DNA of 32,084 nt from a virus. The stretch is taken from IMG/VR virus record IMGVR_UViG_3300042381_000362, positions 1 through 32,084 of that record; one strand, written 5' to 3'. Made by a program: the position numbers and the translations under genes. This document shows, piece after piece, positions 141 through 7,925 of this stretch (the stretch's first letter is position 1; every line of letters begins with the position of its first letter). The notes under the pieces are model-generated. The model made no database searches. It was given only the letters and a program-made list of their open reading frames with translations, and had not been told where the DNA came from.

Positions 141-181
141 ATGTTCCACGTGAAACAATATATATAATCAATTATAATAAC
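141..181 (+). repeat. Extended direct repeat around parS 1 (pairs with 295-336)
   Basis: The first 20 bases (141-160) are identical to 295-314. The similarity continues past parS as ATATAAT (162-168 and 315-321) and TTATAATA (172-179 and 326-333), with small spacing differences. The repeated unit is therefore about 40 bp, longer than parS alone, which suggests duplication of a whole binding-site module. Confidence 0.65.
142..157 (+). promoter_or_regulatory. parS: parS-like centromere site, copy 1
   Basis: The 16 bases TGTTCCACGTGAAACA match the broadly conserved chromosomal parS consensus TGTTNCACGTGAAACA at every position. ParB/Spo0J proteins bind this near-palindrome (core CACGTG). It lies in non-coding DNA, and a second identical copy occurs 154 bp away, which makes chance very unlikely. 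No parA or parB gene is in the window, so whether a phage or a host ParB binds here is unknown. Confidence 0.85.
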
Positions 182-294: not shown

Positions 295-336
295 ATGTTC
301 CACGTGAAACAATAATATAATTTAGTTATAATAGAC
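295..336 (+). repeat. Extended direct repeat around parS 2 (pairs with 141-181)
   Basis: This is the partner of the repeat at 141-181. The 20 left-hand bases are identical and the AT-rich right half is degenerate. The repeats are in direct orientation with starts 154 bp apart. Confidence 0.65.
296..311 (+). promoter_or_regulatory. parS: parS-like centromere site, copy 2
   Basis: This second site is identical to the copy at 142-157, in the same orientation and again in non-coding DNA. Together the two could nucleate a ParB partition complex. Outside this region the only CACGTG cores noticed lie inside virion genes (near 13910 and 18326) and lack the flanking TGTT and AACA arms, so the pair is confined to this segment. 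Confidence 0.85.
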
Positions 337-420
337 AGTCCGTACAAACTATTAAGTTATCCGTTGTTCCATTTATGGTCTGGACGGTAACATCTATTAC
401 AACTAAATATATATATAAGA

Positions 421-466
421 TGAAAAATAATCTCAGCAGACAATGTAAACAAAGACTGCTGGGATT
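421..466 (-). terminator. Second leftward terminator-like hairpin
   Basis: 429-439 (AATCTCAGCAG) pairs with 456-466 (CTGCTGGGATT) in 11 pairs including one G-T, around a 16-nt loop. Read on the minus strand the stem is followed by ATTTTTCA, a short T run. It lies just beyond the first terminator of the minus-strand gene and could be a back-up terminator or the end of a small RNA. Confidence 0.45.
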
Positions 467-476
467 ATGGAGACTA

Positions 477-517
477 CGAAAAAGGCATTAAGCCCTAACC
501 CTGAGGTTAGAGCTTAA
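477..517 (-). terminator. Rho-independent terminator of the minus-strand gene
   Basis: 488-500 pairs with 505-517: TTAAGC/GCTTAA, one mismatch, then CTAACC/GGTTAG, around a 4-nt loop. On the minus strand it is followed by TGCCTTTTTC. The stem includes the TAA stop of the gene at 507-776, so translation would end inside the terminator. Confidence 0.65.
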
Positions 518-776
518 TAGCAGAACGTCTTTGTTTCTCAACAATCCACGGCTGGCCGTTGATTCTTGAGATTTCAAAGTCGTTTGACAATCCTAAGTCT
601 TCTGTAAGAAACTTAGGAGTGTTGCCATTGAAGTGCTTTGCACCTACAAGGGCTTTGCTGCCATCTGTGAAATTCACAATGGCAGCTTGAACAGGACTAC
701 CCTGTTCGTTGGTTGCTTGCTCTATAGAGCTTGCAACTTGTTTGGCATCTTTTGATGCCCAATTGAGTGTTAGCAT
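507..776 (-). CDS. Small conserved-looking protein of unknown function (89 aa)
   Basis: I do not recognise this protein. It has 89 residues, is soluble, has no signal peptide or membrane segment, and reads as alternating strands and short helices (AIVNFTDGSKALVG, then DFEISRINGQPWIVEKQ), which could be a small mixed alpha/beta or beta-barrel fold. It is the only convincing gene on the minus strand. By hand count it is 43% GC (116 of 270) against about one third around it, so it either came from elsewhere or is under expression-linked codon selection. It has its own terminator overlapping the stop, and an inverted repeat just upstream of its ATG. Its position between the parS region and the rightward late region suggests a separately controlled gene. 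A DNA-binding or regulatory role is a guess. Confidence 0.7.
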   Translation of the reverse strand: MLTLNWASKDAKQVASSIEQATNEQGSPVQAAIVNFTDGSKALVGAKHFNGNTPKFLTEDLGLSNDFEISRINGQPWIVEKQRRSAIKL

Positions 777-784
777 ACGCGAAA

Positions 785-806
785 TAGCAGGGGGTATATA
801 CTGCTA
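785..806. promoter_or_regulatory. Inverted repeat upstream of the minus-strand gene
   Basis: TAGCAG (785-790) and CTGCTA (801-806) form perfect 6-bp arms around 10 bases, starting 9 bp upstream of the ATG of the gene at 507-776. It could be a repressor operator or a hairpin in the 5' leader. No clear TAnnTTTG box was found for this gene. Confidence 0.4.
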
Positions 807-896
807 AAGTAAGTGAAGGGATGGTTTGATGGGGACTCAATCACACACTCAATTACAGATTAAATTTTTAATTAAAAAAATTTTTTGTATAACACC

Positions 897-1022: not shown

Positions 1023-1054
1023 TTTGGAAAGTTTAAACTTTCTAGATATATTTG
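1023..1054 (+). promoter_or_regulatory. Strong Bacteroidota-type promoter for the packaging block
   Basis: TTTG (1023-1026), 20 bp, then TATATTTG (1047-1054) is a full match to the Bacteroidota primary-sigma consensus TTTG / TAnnTTTG. Transcription would start near 1061, about 14 nt before the ATG at 1075. The spacer contains a perfect palindrome. Confidence 0.75.
1027..1042. promoter_or_regulatory. Perfect 16-bp palindrome, candidate operator
   Basis: GAAAGTTTAAACTTTC is its own reverse complement and lies exactly between the -33 and -7 boxes of the promoter at 1023-1054. A dimeric repressor or activator bound there would control the promoter directly. A related half-site (GGAAGTTTAAA) follows the TTTG box at 17671. 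Confidence 0.55.
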
Positions 1055-1074: not shown

Positions 1075-1473
1075 ATGAAATCAAACAAACAAACAACAGA
1101 AACAATGGAAGCAGCACAAGAAGCTCCTAGTAAAGAAAAGGTAATGGAATGGATGCTAGATCAAATAGCATTTAAGAAAGTTCAATTAGAATTACAGGAG
1201 GTTGATACAAAGATTGCTGTTAGTAGATCAGAGTATATGAAGGCTATGTATACAATAGCACAGATATCTTCTCCACAGGATTCTCCTACATTAAAGCAAC
1301 ACACTCTTACAGAAGAAGATATATCTGCTAATCCTGAGTTAGTTGAGCAAGGATTTAAAGTGGGGGATGTTGTTGGTATTCCTCCTCATACAGAAGAAGA
1401 GGAAATTGAGTTTACACCAGAATCCAACACAAATTCTGCTCCATTACAGCCTACAAGAGGATTAAAAAAATAA
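1075..1473 (+). CDS. Unknown protein, first gene of the packaging block (132 aa)
   Basis: I do not recognise this protein. It is hydrophilic. Residues about 20-65 look like one or two long helices with possible coiled-coil character (LDQIAFKKVQLELQEVDTKI). The C-terminal half is acidic and Pro-rich (HTEEEEIEFTPE) and ends in a basic GLKK. There is no signal peptide or membrane segment. It is the first gene after the strong promoter at 1023-1054 and is followed 4 bp later by the winged-helix-like gene, so the two are surely co-transcribed. The ATG at 1075 is preceded by an A/T-rich leader with no Shine-Dalgarno sequence, as for most genes here. The helix-plus-acidic-tail build would fit an assembly or scaffold-like helper, but nothing proves it. 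Confidence 0.75.
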   Translation: MKSNKQTTETMEAAQEAPSKEKVMEWMLDQIAFKKVQLELQEVDTKIAVSRSEYMKAMYTIAQISSPQDSPTLKQHTLTEEDISANPELVEQGFKVGDVVGIPPHTEEEEIEFTPESNTNSAPLQPTRGLKK

Positions 1474-1477
1474 TAAT

Positions 1478-1846
1478 ATGGCAGAGGTAAATCAAGTTGT
1501 AAAAAAGACTAAGGTTGATAAATGGGATATTATTAAGTTCCAGCTCACTACATATTGTTTTTTTAATAAGCTATCTCTTTCTAATGCAGATCTTGATTGT
1601 ATTATATTGTTAGCAATGTCTGATGATTTAGATGAATTAAACACTATATGCATTAAGGTTTGTGATATGAAGATATTTAAAACTCCACAGAGTGTTAGAA
1701 ATTCATTAAACAAAATGGAGAAGAAAGGTATTTTAGTTAAGAGTGGGAAGGGTAAGAAGAAGCTTGTTATTAATCCTGATATTGGACTTATTAAAGAGGG
1801 TAATATATTATTGAATTATAATCTATTATGTATTGAGACCAATTAA
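1478..1846 (+). CDS. Winged-helix-like small protein (122 aa)
   Basis: The protein has a Lys-rich N-terminus, then helices. Residues about 72-100 (SVRNSLNKMEKKGILVKSG followed by a strand KKLVINP) look like the recognition helix and wing of a winged-helix domain. Residues 20-60 are helical, with several Cys that show no zinc-finger spacing. This suggests a DNA-binding protein, perhaps a late regulator or a small-terminase-like factor that marks DNA for packaging; the assignment rests on sequence pattern alone. The last 14 nt overlap the start of the IHF/HU-like gene in another frame, consistent with translational coupling. Confidence 0.7.
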   Translation: MAEVNQVVKKTKVDKWDIIKFQLTTYCFFNKLSLSNADLDCIILLAMSDDLDELNTICIKVCDMKIFKTPQSVRNSLNKMEKKGILVKSGKGKKKLVINPDIGLIKEGNILLNYNLLCIETN

Positions 1847-2252
1847 GTCTAAAGATCTTATTGTATCCACCGCACTTAAGAACAATCTTCCAGTGGAAGT
1901 GGTGACAGAAATAATTGCTGTTTATTGGAAAGATGTTAGAACTGCTTTGTCTACATTAGCATTTCCTAAAGTGCATGTAAGTAATTTAGGGGATTTTGTT
2001 GTAAAGTATTGGCTTATTGAAAAGCAGAAAGAAAACATCCACAGAATTATGAATGGATTAAAGCCAGGAATTAGAGGGGATGCATTACGTTTAAGTTTAG
2101 AAAGTAAGTTAATTCTTATAGATGAGATGGAAGAAAAAAGATTAGGTGAAGAACAAAGAAAAGATTTTATTAAATCACACAAAAAATTAATATCAAATGT
2201 TAAATCAAATATTTCAAAACAGAAAACAGATTTTAGAAGGAATAAAAAATAA
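1833..2252 (+). CDS. IHF/HU-like DNA-binding protein, TTG start (139 aa)
   Basis: The N-terminal 60 residues follow the IHF/HU pattern: two helices (SKDLIVSTALKNNLPVEVV, then a helix ending in ALSTL) and the strand-turn-strand NLGDFVVKYWL at about 51-61, equivalent to the conserved LxxFGxF region of HU. The usual beta-arm is replaced by a Lys/Arg-rich helical tail (residues 62-139). IHF/HU proteins bend DNA; phage versions can help compact or package the genome. The frame has no ATG: TTG at 1833 is the only standard start after the in-frame stop at 1812-1814. It overlaps the previous gene by 14 nt and the next by 56 nt. Confidence 0.75.
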   Translation: MRPIKSKDLIVSTALKNNLPVEVVTEIIAVYWKDVRTALSTLAFPKVHVSNLGDFVVKYWLIEKQKENIHRIMNGLKPGIRGDALRLSLESKLILIDEMEEKRLGEEQRKDFIKSHKKLISNVKSNISKQKTDFRRNKK

Positions 2253-2511
2253 CATTTTTAAGAAAGATCATGTTGAAGTTATTGCAAATGGTAGATTAAA
2301 CATTTGTAAATCTTGTGATAATTATACTATGGGAGATGCTGGTTGCCTAGTGGTAGGAACCAGCCCCTGCTGTAATAAATTAACAGGTGGTTGTGGATGT
2401 AGTTTGTCATTAAAAACAAGAGCATTAAGTTCAGGATGTCCTCTTTCTGTTCCTAAGTGGAAAGCTATTTTAACAGAAAAAGAAGAAGATATATTAAATA
2501 AACAATTATAA
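2197..2511 (+). CDS. Cys-rich, probably zinc-binding small protein (104 aa)
   Basis: Cys occur at 37, 40, 50, 58, 59, 66, 68 and 81, in the pattern RLNICKSC - C - CC - CGCSLSLKTR - CP - W. This is a layout I know from small proteins common in phages of Bacteroidota (CxxC, then CGCxLxxKTR, then CPxxxW), probably one or two zinc sites. The function of that family is unknown to me. An amphipathic N-terminal helix precedes the metal-binding part. Starting at ATG 2197 gives a 56-nt overlap with the IHF/HU-like gene. No later ATG precedes the first Cys pair, so this start, or a nearby non-ATG start, must be used. Confidence 0.75.
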   Translation: MLNQIFQNRKQILEGIKNNIFKKDHVEVIANGRLNICKSCDNYTMGDAGCLVVGTSPCCNKLTGGCGCSLSLKTRALSSGCPLSVPKWKAILTEKEEDILNKQL

Positions 2512-4753: not shown

Positions 4754-6983
4754 AATAGAAAATAATTATTATATTCAAATCCCTACATTTGAAAACAGCA
4801 CTTGGACAACCACAGTTTTTAATACAAGGGATGAATATAAAGAATTTGTAAATTCTATTTTTATTGATGCAGGTCCTGATAAAGGATATGGGTTTGATGA
4901 AATGAGTTTTGAATTTAATAGTGAAGCTAGAAAATTTCAAAAACAAGGATATTATACTAATGTACCTTTTAGGTCAAAGGATTATGTATTGTATTGGGAT
5001 GACCAAAAAAACAAATGTAAGAATGGTATAATCTTTAAGAATAAAGGTAAAACATGGTATCTCACTAGAGATTATTATATGTGGTTGAATTTTCTTCCTA
5101 TTTATGATAAGGAAGAAAAAAGATTTGACTTTGCTAAAGTGAGGGATGCTCAATATCATATGGCATTATATGAATGGAAAGCAGAACTTAATTATAAACA
5201 TTGTCCTATATTAAAAAAACGTCAGATAGCTAGTTCCTATTTTCATATGGGTAAACTAATAAATGCTTATTGGTTTGAAGAAGGATCTGTAAATAAAATA
5301 GGAGCTAGTCTTAAAGACTACATTTCTGAGAAAGGATCTTGGAGGATGTTAAATGAATATAGGAATTTCTTAAATGAGCACACTGCATGGTATAGACCAT
5401 CAGAACCAGATAAGATATTTTCATGGCAACAAAGGATTAAAGTGAGAATTGGTGGTCGTGATACTTATAAAGGAAACAAATCTATTATCACTGGTACATC
5501 ATTTGAGAAAGATCCAACTAATGGTGTTGGTGGTCCATGTACTTATTTCTTTCATGAGGAGGCAGGTATTGCTCCTAAGATGATGGATACATATGAGTTT
5601 ATGAGACCTGCCTTACAATCTGGTATGGTGACTACAGGAACATTTATTGCTGCTGGATCTGTGGGTGATTTAGATCAATGTATTCCTTTAAAAGATATGA
5701 TCTTGTATCCACACAAATTTAGTATGCAAGCTGTCACTACAGATTTATTAGATGGTAATAAGACAATAGGTGAAACAGGACTTTTTATTCCTGAACAATG
5801 GAGTATGCCACCTTATATAGATGTATTTGGAAATTCTTTAGTAAATAAAGCTTTAGAAGCAATTTATGAAGAACGTAAACAATGGAAAAAAGATCTTAGT
5901 CCAGAACAATACCAGCTTCGTATATCTCAAAAACCCACTAACATTGAAGAAGCTTTTGCTACAAGAAAAGAATCTGTATTTCCACCACATTTAATATCAC
6001 ATCAACTTAAACGTATAGAAGATGGAGAATATCCAGTTGAATATGTTACATTATCTATAGGAGAAGATAATGGTAAAATCATTGCTACAAAAACTAATAA
6101 GAGTCCAATAAAGAAATTTCCTATAGATAAAACTATGGAAGATAAGTCTGGAGTGATATGTGTATATTCAAGACCAATTCCAAATGTTCCTTGGGGAACA
6201 TATTATGCTTCTATAGATCCAGTTGGGGAGGGAAAAACAACAACAAGTGATTCATTATGTAGTATATTTATATACAAAAATCCTACAGAAGTAATAAAAG
6301 ATGATGGGCAAGGTAAGGTGAGTACACATTTTGAAAGAGATGAGATGGTGGCTTCATGGTGTGGAAGGTTTGATGATCTTCAAAAAACACACGAAAGATT
6401 GGAGATGATGATAGAATGGTATAATGCTTGGACTTTAGTGGAGAATAATGTAAGTCTTTTCATACAATATATGATTAGTAAAAGAAAACAGAAGTATTTA
6501 GTTCCAAAAGATCAGATTCCTTTTCTAAAAGAACTTTCTTCTAATGCTAGTGTATATGCTACATATGGATGGAAAAACACTGGGACATTATTTAAAACCC
6601 ATTTAATATCTTATGGTATACAGTTTTTACAAGAAGAATTAGATATTCAAACAAATGAAAGTGGTGAGGTGATGAAAACTCACTATGGAGTGGAAAGAAT
6701 TCCTGACCCAATGTTATTAGAAGAGATGAAACAATATCAACCAGGTTTAAATGTTGACCGTTTAGTTTCATTTTGTGCATTAGTTGCATTTGCTCAAATA
6801 CAACAGAATAACAGAGGAAGAGCAACAAGAGTAGAAATTACATCAGATAAGTTGGAAAATTCACAAAAATTAAGTAAATTATCTATAAGGAGTCCATTTA
6901 GACATATGGGTTTAAACTCAGGAAGTTTAAGCAAAAGTGCTTTAAATAGTCCCCCTAGAAATACTTTCAAAAACATAAAATAA
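4740..6983 (+). CDS. terL: Terminase large subunit (747 aa)
   Basis: This is the packaging motor: an ATPase that pumps DNA into the prohead through the portal, and a nuclease that cuts the concatemer. A Walker A-like segment KKRQIASSY (159-167) lacks the classical GKS/T, as in many TerL proteins that use a deviant (R/K)QxG-type loop. Walker B is TYFFHEEAG (268-276), with the catalytic Glu next to the acidic pair. The C-terminal RNase H-like nuclease shows YASIDPVGEG (489-498) with its Asp and LVENN (566-570) with the second acidic residue. At 747 residues it is long for TerL (commonly 450-650) but similar to large phages of this host group. No partner small subunit is identified with confidence. 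It starts inside the end of the preceding gene. Confidence 0.9.
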   Translation: MQQHKIENNYYIQIPTFENSTWTTTVFNTRDEYKEFVNSIFIDAGPDKGYGFDEMSFEFNSEARKFQKQGYYTNVPFRSKDYVLYWDDQKNKCKNGIIFKNKGKTWYLTRDYYMWLNFLPIYDKEEKRFDFAKVRDAQYHMALYEWKAELNYKHCPILKKRQIASSYFHMGKLINAYWFEEGSVNKIGASLKDYISEKGSWRMLNEYRNFLNEHTAWYRPSEPDKIFSWQQRIKVRIGGRDTYKGNKSIITGTSFEKDPTNGVGGPCTYFFHEEAGIAPKMMDTYEFMRPALQSGMVTTGTFIAAGSVGDLDQCIPLKDMILYPHKFSMQAVTTDLLDGNKTIGETGLFIPEQWSMPPYIDVFGNSLVNKALEAIYEERKQWKKDLSPEQYQLRISQKPTNIEEAFATRKESVFPPHLISHQLKRIEDGEYPVEYVTLSIGEDNGKIIATKTNKSPIKKFPIDKTMEDKSGVICVYSRPIPNVPWGTYYASIDPVGEGKTTTSDSLCSIFIYKNPTEVIKDDGQGKVSTHFERDEMVASWCGRFDDLQKTHERLEMMIEWYNAWTLVENNVSLFIQYMISKRKQKYLVPKDQIPFLKELSSNASVYATYGWKNTGTLFKTHLISYGIQFLQEELDIQTNESGEVMKTHYGVERIPDPMLLEEMKQYQPGLNVDRLVSFCALVAFAQIQQNNRGRATRVEITSDKLENSQKLSKLSIRSPFRHMGLNSGSLSKSALNSPPRNTFKNIK

Positions 6984-7283: not shown

Positions 7284-7925
7284 ATGGCTTATGTATATAG
7301 ACATATCAGATTAGATAAAAATCAACCTTTTTATATAGGAATTGGTAGTGATGATTATTATAATAGAGCACATAGTAAAAAAAATAGAAATAAGTATTGG
7401 AAAAATATTACAAGATTAACAAAATATGATATAGAAATATTAATGGATAATTTAACATGGGAAAAATCATGTGAAAAAGAAAAAGAATTTATAGCATTAT
7501 ATGGCAGAAAAGATTTAAATAAAGGAATATTATGTAATTGTACTGATGGTGGTGAAGGAGTTTTGGGTTTAACAATGTCTAATGAAACACGTAATAAAAT
7601 AAGAATTGCAAATACAGGAAAAAAACAATCAGCTGATCAAATAGCAAAAAGAGTAGAAAAATTAAAAGGTGAAAAAAATCCTTGGTTTGGAAAAAAATTT
7701 TCAGAAGAATATAGAAAAAAATTATCTGAAGCAAAAAAAGGTAAAAAAAGAAATGTAGAAGTTATGAATAATCTACATGCTTGTTTAAGAAAAAAAATAT
7801 TAGATTTAGAAACAAATAAAATTTATAATTCAATTAATGATTTAGCAAAAGAATATAATGTTCATTCTAGTACTGCAAGCAGGTGGGTTAAATCTAAAAA
7901 CTTAAAATTTAAAATAATAAAATAA
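7284..7925 (+). CDS. GIY-YIG homing endonuclease with NUMOD domains (213 aa)
   Basis: An N-terminal GIY-YIG nuclease (1-90) shows YVY (3-5) and YIG (17-19), an Arg at 28, a Glu-rich helix at 60-70 and the conserved Asn near LCNCTDGGEG. Two NUMOD3-type segments follow (about 97-115 and 130-153, the second NPWFGKKFSEEYRKKLSEA), then a NUMOD1/IENR1-type helix-turn-helix near the C-terminus (DLETNKIYNSINDLAKEYN). This is the standard build of free-standing phage homing endonucleases, which spread by cutting related genomes that lack them. It is inserted between packaging genes and the portal, its stop overlaps the portal ATG by one base, and it is visibly richer in A than its neighbours. All neighbouring genes look intact, so it is free-standing rather than in an intron. 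Confidence 0.88.
   Translation: MAYVYRHIRLDKNQPFYIGIGSDDYYNRAHSKKNRNKYWKNITRLTKYDIEILMDNLTWEKSCEKEKEFIALYGRKDLNKGILCNCTDGGEGVLGLTMSNETRNKIRIANTGKKQSADQIAKRVEKLKGEKNPWFGKKFSEEYRKKLSEAKKGKKRNVEVMNNLHACLRKKILDLETNKIYNSINDLAKEYNVHSSTASRWVKSKNLKFKIIK

Follow-up and report, generated by a model that had tools for sequence, protein, structure and literature searches.

A hypervariable one-gene replacement slot with a common structured leader in large tailed phages

Structured leader RNAs are known in phages, for example the put antiterminators of HK022 and the translational operators of T4. Small self-contained genes known as morons are found in lambdoid and other temperate phages, and an excerpt of PMC6469090 describes their independent transcription. 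In relatives of T7 and T3, gp0.3 encodes the Ocr DNA mimic in some cases and a SAM hydrolase in others, according to an excerpt of PMC8594841. Pistol ribozymes have been reported to adjoin phage genes (excerpts of PMC4604425 and PMC6154101).

The locus described here resembles each of these systems in part. As with T7-like gp0.3, unrelated genes fill one position in close relatives, but here 11 families of proteins (A-K), about 80-134 aa long, occupy 33 loci behind a common structured leader, in much larger phages, and counter-defence is no more than a candidate function. Like a moron, the slot gene has its own terminator, an unlike GC content and a self-contained layout; unlike a moron, it is replaced occupant for occupant rather than inserted, and its leader is common to unrelated genes. 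The structured element lies right before the first gene of an arm, as do the HK022 put and T4 operator elements, but it has no Rfam match in the sources scanned. The predicted fold of one alternative occupant family (C) recalls the OB-fold ssDNA-binding proteins SSB, PriB and PrgE, although the occupants have no sequence-profile membership in these groups and an OB fold is not established for the family found in the window (A). Hatchet and pistol ribozymes of the relatives match Rfam above the gathering score; the difference is that they hold a fixed place downstream of a hypervariable slot gene, and none was found in the available sequence of the window phage. No description of the slot or of its leader was found among the literature matches listed.

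The gene at 507-776 and its surroundings

The source record is a virus fragment of 32,084 bases, and the whole of it is called the window here. PHROG matches to TerL, portal and major head mark a tailed phage, and a large one; the records of its relatives run to 100-128 kb. Judged by major head protein, its closest named records belong to Leptolyngbya phage Lbo-JY46, a fragment of a faecal phage and Cellulophaga phages, none of which reaches 60% identity. The features at the left end of the window are as follows.

142..157, plus strand: parS-like site TGTTCCACGTGAAACA, a neighbour outside the cassette
296..311, plus strand: second parS-like site TGTTCCACGTGAAACA, likewise outside the cassette
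316-412 (stem-loop proper 320..408), minus strand: large stem-loop bordering the cassette, at the end where hatchet or pistol ribozymes are found in relatives
413..838, no strand assigned: exchangeable cassette, its limits placed to within about 10 nt
427..468, minus strand: intrinsic terminator 2, absent from the list of the consensus terminator scan
486..519, minus strand: intrinsic terminator 1, its stem overlapping the gene's last codons
507..776, minus strand: slot gene of family A, 89 codons, ATG start, all-beta model
776..862, minus strand: conserved leader (model R1), common to unrelated slot genes
785..806, minus strand: leader hairpin with a 6-bp stem and 10-nt loop, inverted repeat TAGCAG...CTGCTA
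1075..1473, plus strand: first gene of the rightward arm, the conserved right border used as anchor

The original prediction singled out a GC-richer minus-strand gene at 507-776, and the 89-codon ORF proved to be real. Codon comparisons indicate purifying selection among the nearer family A homologues. For example, dN/dS is about 0.30 (0.325/1.068) between the window and L006 and about 0.20 (0.134/0.68) between L006 and L161; selection looks weaker between L012 and L051 (0.74; 0.138/0.187), and deeper pairs give about 0.4-0.6, near saturation. Seven residues (F36, G39, L43, F56, G74, W77 and I78) are invariant in the seven members. The gene's GC content of 0.430 is the highest among the ORFs taken as genes, the 36 others averaging 0.312 (sd 0.032), and only 1.6% of 270-bp stretches match it.

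The signals predicted around the gene are also present. Both tandem terminators lie on its strand: the stretch at 478-522, which holds terminator 1, folds at -21.9 kcal/mol (z -5.5), and that at 424-470, which holds terminator 2, at -16.5 kcal/mol (z -5.7), with 0 of 200 shuffles folding as well in either case. The inverted repeat stands 9-30 bp ahead of the ATG and folds as RNA with a z of -4.5 (2 of 200 shuffles equal it). Outside the cassette, the 97-nt stem-loop at 316-412 has a z of -4.1, equalled by 0 of 200 shuffles. Its 320-408 part is retained, 98-100% identical, in two near-identical relatives with other occupants (L004 and L083), and it has no Rfam match; it could be an undescribed structured RNA. 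The gene at 507-776 is a real gene in a real, unusual setting, and any activity of its protein is putative.

The gene was also thought to lie on the strand opposite to all others. This holds inside the window, but not in general: the gene appears alone on the minus strand because the window ends there. A second contig of the same phage (L002), 100% identical in the overlap, extends about 1.25 kb past the window's left end and adds two minus-strand ORFs, one of 114 and one of 72 aa, on the far side of the parS repeats. Further genes of this leftward arm are seen in L083 and L161. The gene at 507-776 is therefore the first of a divergent arm, not a lone gene, and the slot gene heads the leftward arm.

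Separate regulation, another part of the original prediction, is plausible through the gene's own leader and terminators; the promoter call listed sigma-70-like sites, none of them prominent. Ahead of the rightward operon, TTTG-N20-TATATTTG at 1023-1054 (plus strand) encloses the palindrome GAAAGTTTAAACTTTC; it has the form of the Bacteroidetes promoter pattern. A motif of this type was seen for the rightward arm only, and the pattern by itself is as common by chance.

Replacement of the occupant

Relatives were collected through TerL and the exonuclease (the best 80 of 441 and the best 80 of at least 599 confirmed stretches). At 84 loci the neighbouring gene g122 was in register and 900 bases or more of upstream sequence were present. 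The occupant was assigned by hand in 31 of them; these, with the window and L161, make the 33 slot rows. Near-duplicates (e.g., L003, L065, L097), loci where rightward genes replace the divergent arm, and loci with no recognised occupant (among them L016, L021, L046, L069, L080, L090 and L095) were excluded. The 11 families come from BLAST clustering at 1e-3, with L100 joined to A through hhalign (probability 89). Families H, I and J have a single member each, and hhalign joined no other pair of families with confidence, the next best being E-F (30%) and C-D (4%).

The clearest view of the replacement comes from the closest relatives. The window's right flank is 99.2% identical to that of L004 over 6,145 bp, 99.0% to that of L083 over 5,352 bp and 98.2% to that of L084 over 4,703 bp. 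The occupant is of family B in L004 and of family C in L083 and L084, and no similarity to the window's cassette was found in any of the three; the gene is replaced in them, never missing. Conversely, L006 and L161 share the A cassette with the window at 73-74%, with flanks at 79.8% and about 69%. The original prediction of a self-contained cassette is supported, and in this respect more strongly than claimed, as the leader hairpin, gene and terminators differ as a unit between genomes that are 98-99% identical.

Changes of occupant are also frequent over longer distances. A tree of the neighbouring exonuclease gene, with 33 rows, needs no fewer than 19 changes of occupant, where the least possible is 10 and label shuffles average 23.7. 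None of 200 shuffles reached 19 or fewer, so the occupants are not random on the tree and some inheritance remains. L012 and L014 have identical exonucleases and different occupants (A and D), and L100 (A) adjoins L120 (D) on the tree. Ten virus records carry family A in 3 and family C in 1, never both, and each at the slot only. The slot gene exceeds its whole locus in GC content in 29 of the 31 loci compared, the exceptions being L034 and L053.

The cassette consists of a hairpin leader, one small ORF and terminators, swapped as a block. The locus is a hypervariable one-gene replacement slot with a common leader, which the original prediction missed, and confidence in the slot and its exchange is high. 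Exchange would take place by homologous recombination in conserved flanks, the parS and stem-loop side serving on the left and the leader's 5' block with the rightward operon on the right. With recombination placed there, regulation would stay and the protein alone would change. In L084 a 128-aa ORF (5485-5871, plus strand), HNH-like by eye, adjoins the cassette and replaces most of the parS region; Pfam gave no confirmation of an HNH identity. If a homing enzyme is encoded there, it could drive the exchange of cassettes.

The shared leader and downstream RNAs

The stretches upstream of unrelated occupants are similar and are made up of a GAG-GTGTGATG block, boxes rich in C and a hairpin near the start codon. 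The 5' block (about 839-862) is in the conserved flank and the hairpin inside the cassette. A profile was made from 21 leaders of other families, leaving out six close relatives; L018, of the window's clade on the tree, stayed in. Its best match in the 32 kb is the window leader, with an E of 3.9e-5 (the next is 0.75). When the first 18 columns are removed the signal is gone; it therefore comes largely from the 5' block. A broader profile matched 53 of 177 sequences, once in each, and these counts take in duplicates as well as training rows.

The hairpin covaries in the families where this was tested (A, F and B). In ten leaders, some of them related to one another, two-sided changes occur at 4 of 6 pairs, a count attained in 17 of 500 shuffles. 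Of the 500 shuffles, 0 attained the covariation score of 0.359; slides of the hairpin score 0.044-0.274, those of +2 and +3 also giving a signal (0.274 and 0.230). The count of further pair types was no better than in shuffles (365 of 500). For C-type or mixed leaders aligned with MAFFT, RNAalifold gave no consensus fold.

Model R1 was built from those ten leaders, the window's among them, so that the window's own score follows by construction. Over 45 sources it gave 37 matches at E up to 1 and 27 at E up to 0.01. Among the latter, 26 are followed directly by an occupant and the other, in L016, is at the equivalent place with the occupant unrecognised; 17 of the 27 are outside the training set, for example L087 (5e-10), L052 (1e-9), L053 (5e-9) and L061 (1e-7). 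One or other of the two models finds a leader ahead of the gene at 31 of the 33 assigned loci, many of which were training rows, and neither finds one at L120 or L145. The best R1 match falls at the slot in seven of ten whole records (G000, G001, G002, G003, G005, G006 and G007), three of which (G000, G001 and G007) hold training rows. The best match in G004 is a terminator, that in G008 is a weak possible copy away from the slot, and G009 has no match. Rfam at the gathering score gave no leader match in the window and L002. With E allowed up to 2, scans of L002, L004, L006, L007, L161 and L183 gave nothing but a miRNA match in L004, which was not significant. An N4-like hairpin promoter serves a phage RNA polymerase; such a reading of the leader is disfavoured because there is usually one convincing copy per record.

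On the other side of the gene, several relatives carry self-cleaving ribozymes. A census of 49 records (1.97 Mb) with Rfam found hatchet (RF02678) above threshold in five and pistol (RF02679) in one.

L068:3621-3755, minus strand: hatchet, 203 nt downstream of the slot gene
L034:2911-3048, minus strand: hatchet, 683 nt downstream
L064:1630-1762, minus strand: hatchet, 351 nt downstream
L175 and L176:4801-4939, plus strand: hatchet, 509 nt downstream
L084:5267-5326, minus strand: pistol, 619 nt downstream

All six are downstream of the slot gene and on its strand, 203-683 nt away. L175 and L176 carry the same slot protein, and for five independent hits the chance of this placement is roughly 5e-11, a post hoc estimate that supposes a single slot in every record and hits placed uniformly. 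Weaker candidates below threshold are pistols in L051 (342 nt downstream) and L016 (downstream of the leader by about 2 kb) and, in the record of L170, a hatchet at a distance of about 20 kb. A scan of 13 relatives with Rfam gave only the hatchet of L175, the pistol of L084 and a tRNA, and ten further loci gave no ribozyme; none was found in the window phage as covered by the window and L002. Hatchet and pistol ribozymes are thus set at one position in one phage lineage, and their role therefore becomes testable.

The parS-like sites also lie downstream of the gene in the window. The exact TGTTCCACGTGAAACA sites at 142 and 296 exceed chance, each within a 39-nt repeat. They resemble the chromosomal parS of many bacteria, so that host ParB might load on the phage. 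The region is variable among relatives: in L004 a single copy is left and the stretch that separates the repeats appears to have been lost, and L084 has the cassette with the parS pair gone and only the outermost part of the region kept. Exact sites are also found in L021, L023 and L069, whose occupant went unrecognised.

What the slot proteins may do

The 89-aa protein has few affinities. AlphaFold2 with 7 sequences predicts an all-beta structure of six strands (pLDDT 76.8, pTM 0.59), and the other four models score 58-66. No significant match was found in Pfam, PHROGs, NCBIfam, PDB sequences, PDB folds or BFVD; the best fold scores were E 0.16 in PDB and 0.038 in BFVD, none reaching 0.001, and the best VIA hit had a Z of 4.3 over 53 residues (rmsd 2.7). 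The profile search and structure prediction proposed earlier for this protein thus gave an all-beta model with no confident match. An OB fold is not established for it because of the pLDDT of 77, the pTM of 0.59 and the 58-66 of the other models. With a Pfam limit of E 10 the only hit was DarA_N (E 0.048, 13.9 bits vs a cut-off of 27), so an identity with DarA (PF18788) was rejected; the SSB family PF00436 was not matched.

Family C gives a clearer picture. Its model is a five-stranded barrel with a C-terminal helix (pLDDT 73.8, pTM 0.63), and its best-scoring structures in PDB are SSB, PrgE and PriB, with E values from about 5e-3 upwards. Foldseek places SSB first (E 4.7e-3), and VIA gives PriB a Z of 7.6 over 84 residues (rmsd 3.5), with ribosomal OB proteins tying in Z. 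An OB fold is accordingly predicted for family C; SSB function is not thereby given, because the SSB matches tie with ribosomal OB proteins. The matches of this family are weak: comparison with the SSB PHROG gave 0.055 and 0.19, and the family's sequence profile found no SSB in PDB. No homologue in a named phage was found for A or C, and B had only an insignificant match.

The large records were also screened for other replication proteins. PF00436 was matched in 0 of 9 (the control was positive in 12 of 14 genomes), as was the Enc34-type SSB, for which the control was also negative everywhere, making this second result uninformative. Polymerase A was found in 0 of 9, and 7 of the 9 have partial matches to family-B polymerase, over about 50 of 453 positions, the cut-off being passed in 4. 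A missing SSB profile match does not prove absence, because G008 encodes a protein of 147 aa whose C-terminal tail is acidic (L182:1938-2381, plus strand), near the weak leader copy; it is possibly a separate SSB in that lineage.

An SSB-like role for the occupants is the best single guess, held tentatively, because family C has an OB model, the nine records have no SSB profile match and seven of them have polymerase-B matches. The occupants would be small beta-barrel nucleic-acid-binding proteins under a common leader, most likely alternative single-stranded-DNA-binding proteins that are swapped since host defences sense phage SSBs. Excerpts of three papers state that phage SSB activates AbpAB, Hna and Retron-Eco8 (PMC10732053, PMC13381803, PMC12887533), which would give a reason for exchanging such a protein. 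A counter-defence slot is nearly as likely: the first gene of the arm would be one of a changing set of unrelated host-defence inhibitors that share no biochemical activity. In favour of such a slot are the small non-homologous genes that stand at a single place and are swapped between near-identical phages, families A and C never occurring together in ten records, and the precedent of gp0.3 in relatives of T7 and T3 (Ocr DNA mimic or SAM hydrolase; PMC8594841, excerpt). However, no scanned occupant passes the cut-off for a known anti-defence family, DarA_N falling short as noted, and the 48-66% identity within family C together with its predicted OB fold is housekeeping-like. The best guess overall is that the occupants are exchangeable single-stranded-DNA-binding or counter-defence proteins, and these phages may swap a DNA-handling or counter-defence protein as their hosts change.

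Other explanations are less probable. Moron-like cargo, in which independent accessory genes with their own signals and unlike GC settle at a tolerant site and have no common role, is unlikely. It would account for the terminators and leader, the raised GC in 29 of 31 loci and the HNH-like ORF (by eye) adjoining the L084 cassette, but not for a gene that is replaced rather than missing in three near-identical genomes, for the leader upstream in 31 of 33 assigned loci (many training rows) or for purifying selection in the nearer A members. The link to the adjacent centromere-like region that was originally proposed would make the protein a partner of parS, in segregation or related to ParB. In the window the exact sites start 211 and 365 bp downstream of the gene, and in the leftward arm of L084 a 277-aa protein (1429-2262, minus strand) has weak matches to ParB_N (Pfam E 0.0034) and nucleoid-occlusion protein (NCBIfam E 0.00067), both below cut-off. 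But only 7 of 33 loci have sites (2 mismatches at most) in the 2 kb that follow the slot gene, all in the window's clade and with occupants of the unrelated families A, B and C, and the A loci L012, L051, L064 and L100 have none; 9 of the 33 have less than 500 bases of downstream flank, and absences there are weak. The sites follow phage lineage, not the gene, so that the link did not hold up: across the 33 loci, with flanks partly incomplete, the slot gene and parS do not co-occur as an accessory of ParABS would, and a partner role is very improbable. Equally improbable is a chance ORF or a chimeric assembly at a repeat-rich junction. The contigs are metagenomic and repeats were found near the cassette border; against this stand the dN/dS of 0.2-0.3 among nearer homologues, the identical A cassette on two contigs (window and L002) and family A members on records of 125,946 and 100,264 bases.

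A more speculative and rather unlikely extension of the SSB-like reading is a gene socket, in which a conserved RNA frame (the covarying leader upstream, a ribozyme or other structured RNA downstream) would hold interchangeable small proteins with one job, single-stranded nucleic-acid binding, so that what host defences sense changes with regulation untouched. If so, hatchet ribozymes would gain a defined genetic context. Should the occupants be functionally equivalent, they would form a natural set of unrelated proteins with one task and one regulatory element, and would allow a direct test of whether SSB-sensing defences drive replacement of the sensed protein.

Elsewhere in the window, a homing-endonuclease-like gene (7284-7925, plus strand; NUMOD3, E 6.8e-10) has the terminase on one side and the portal on the other.
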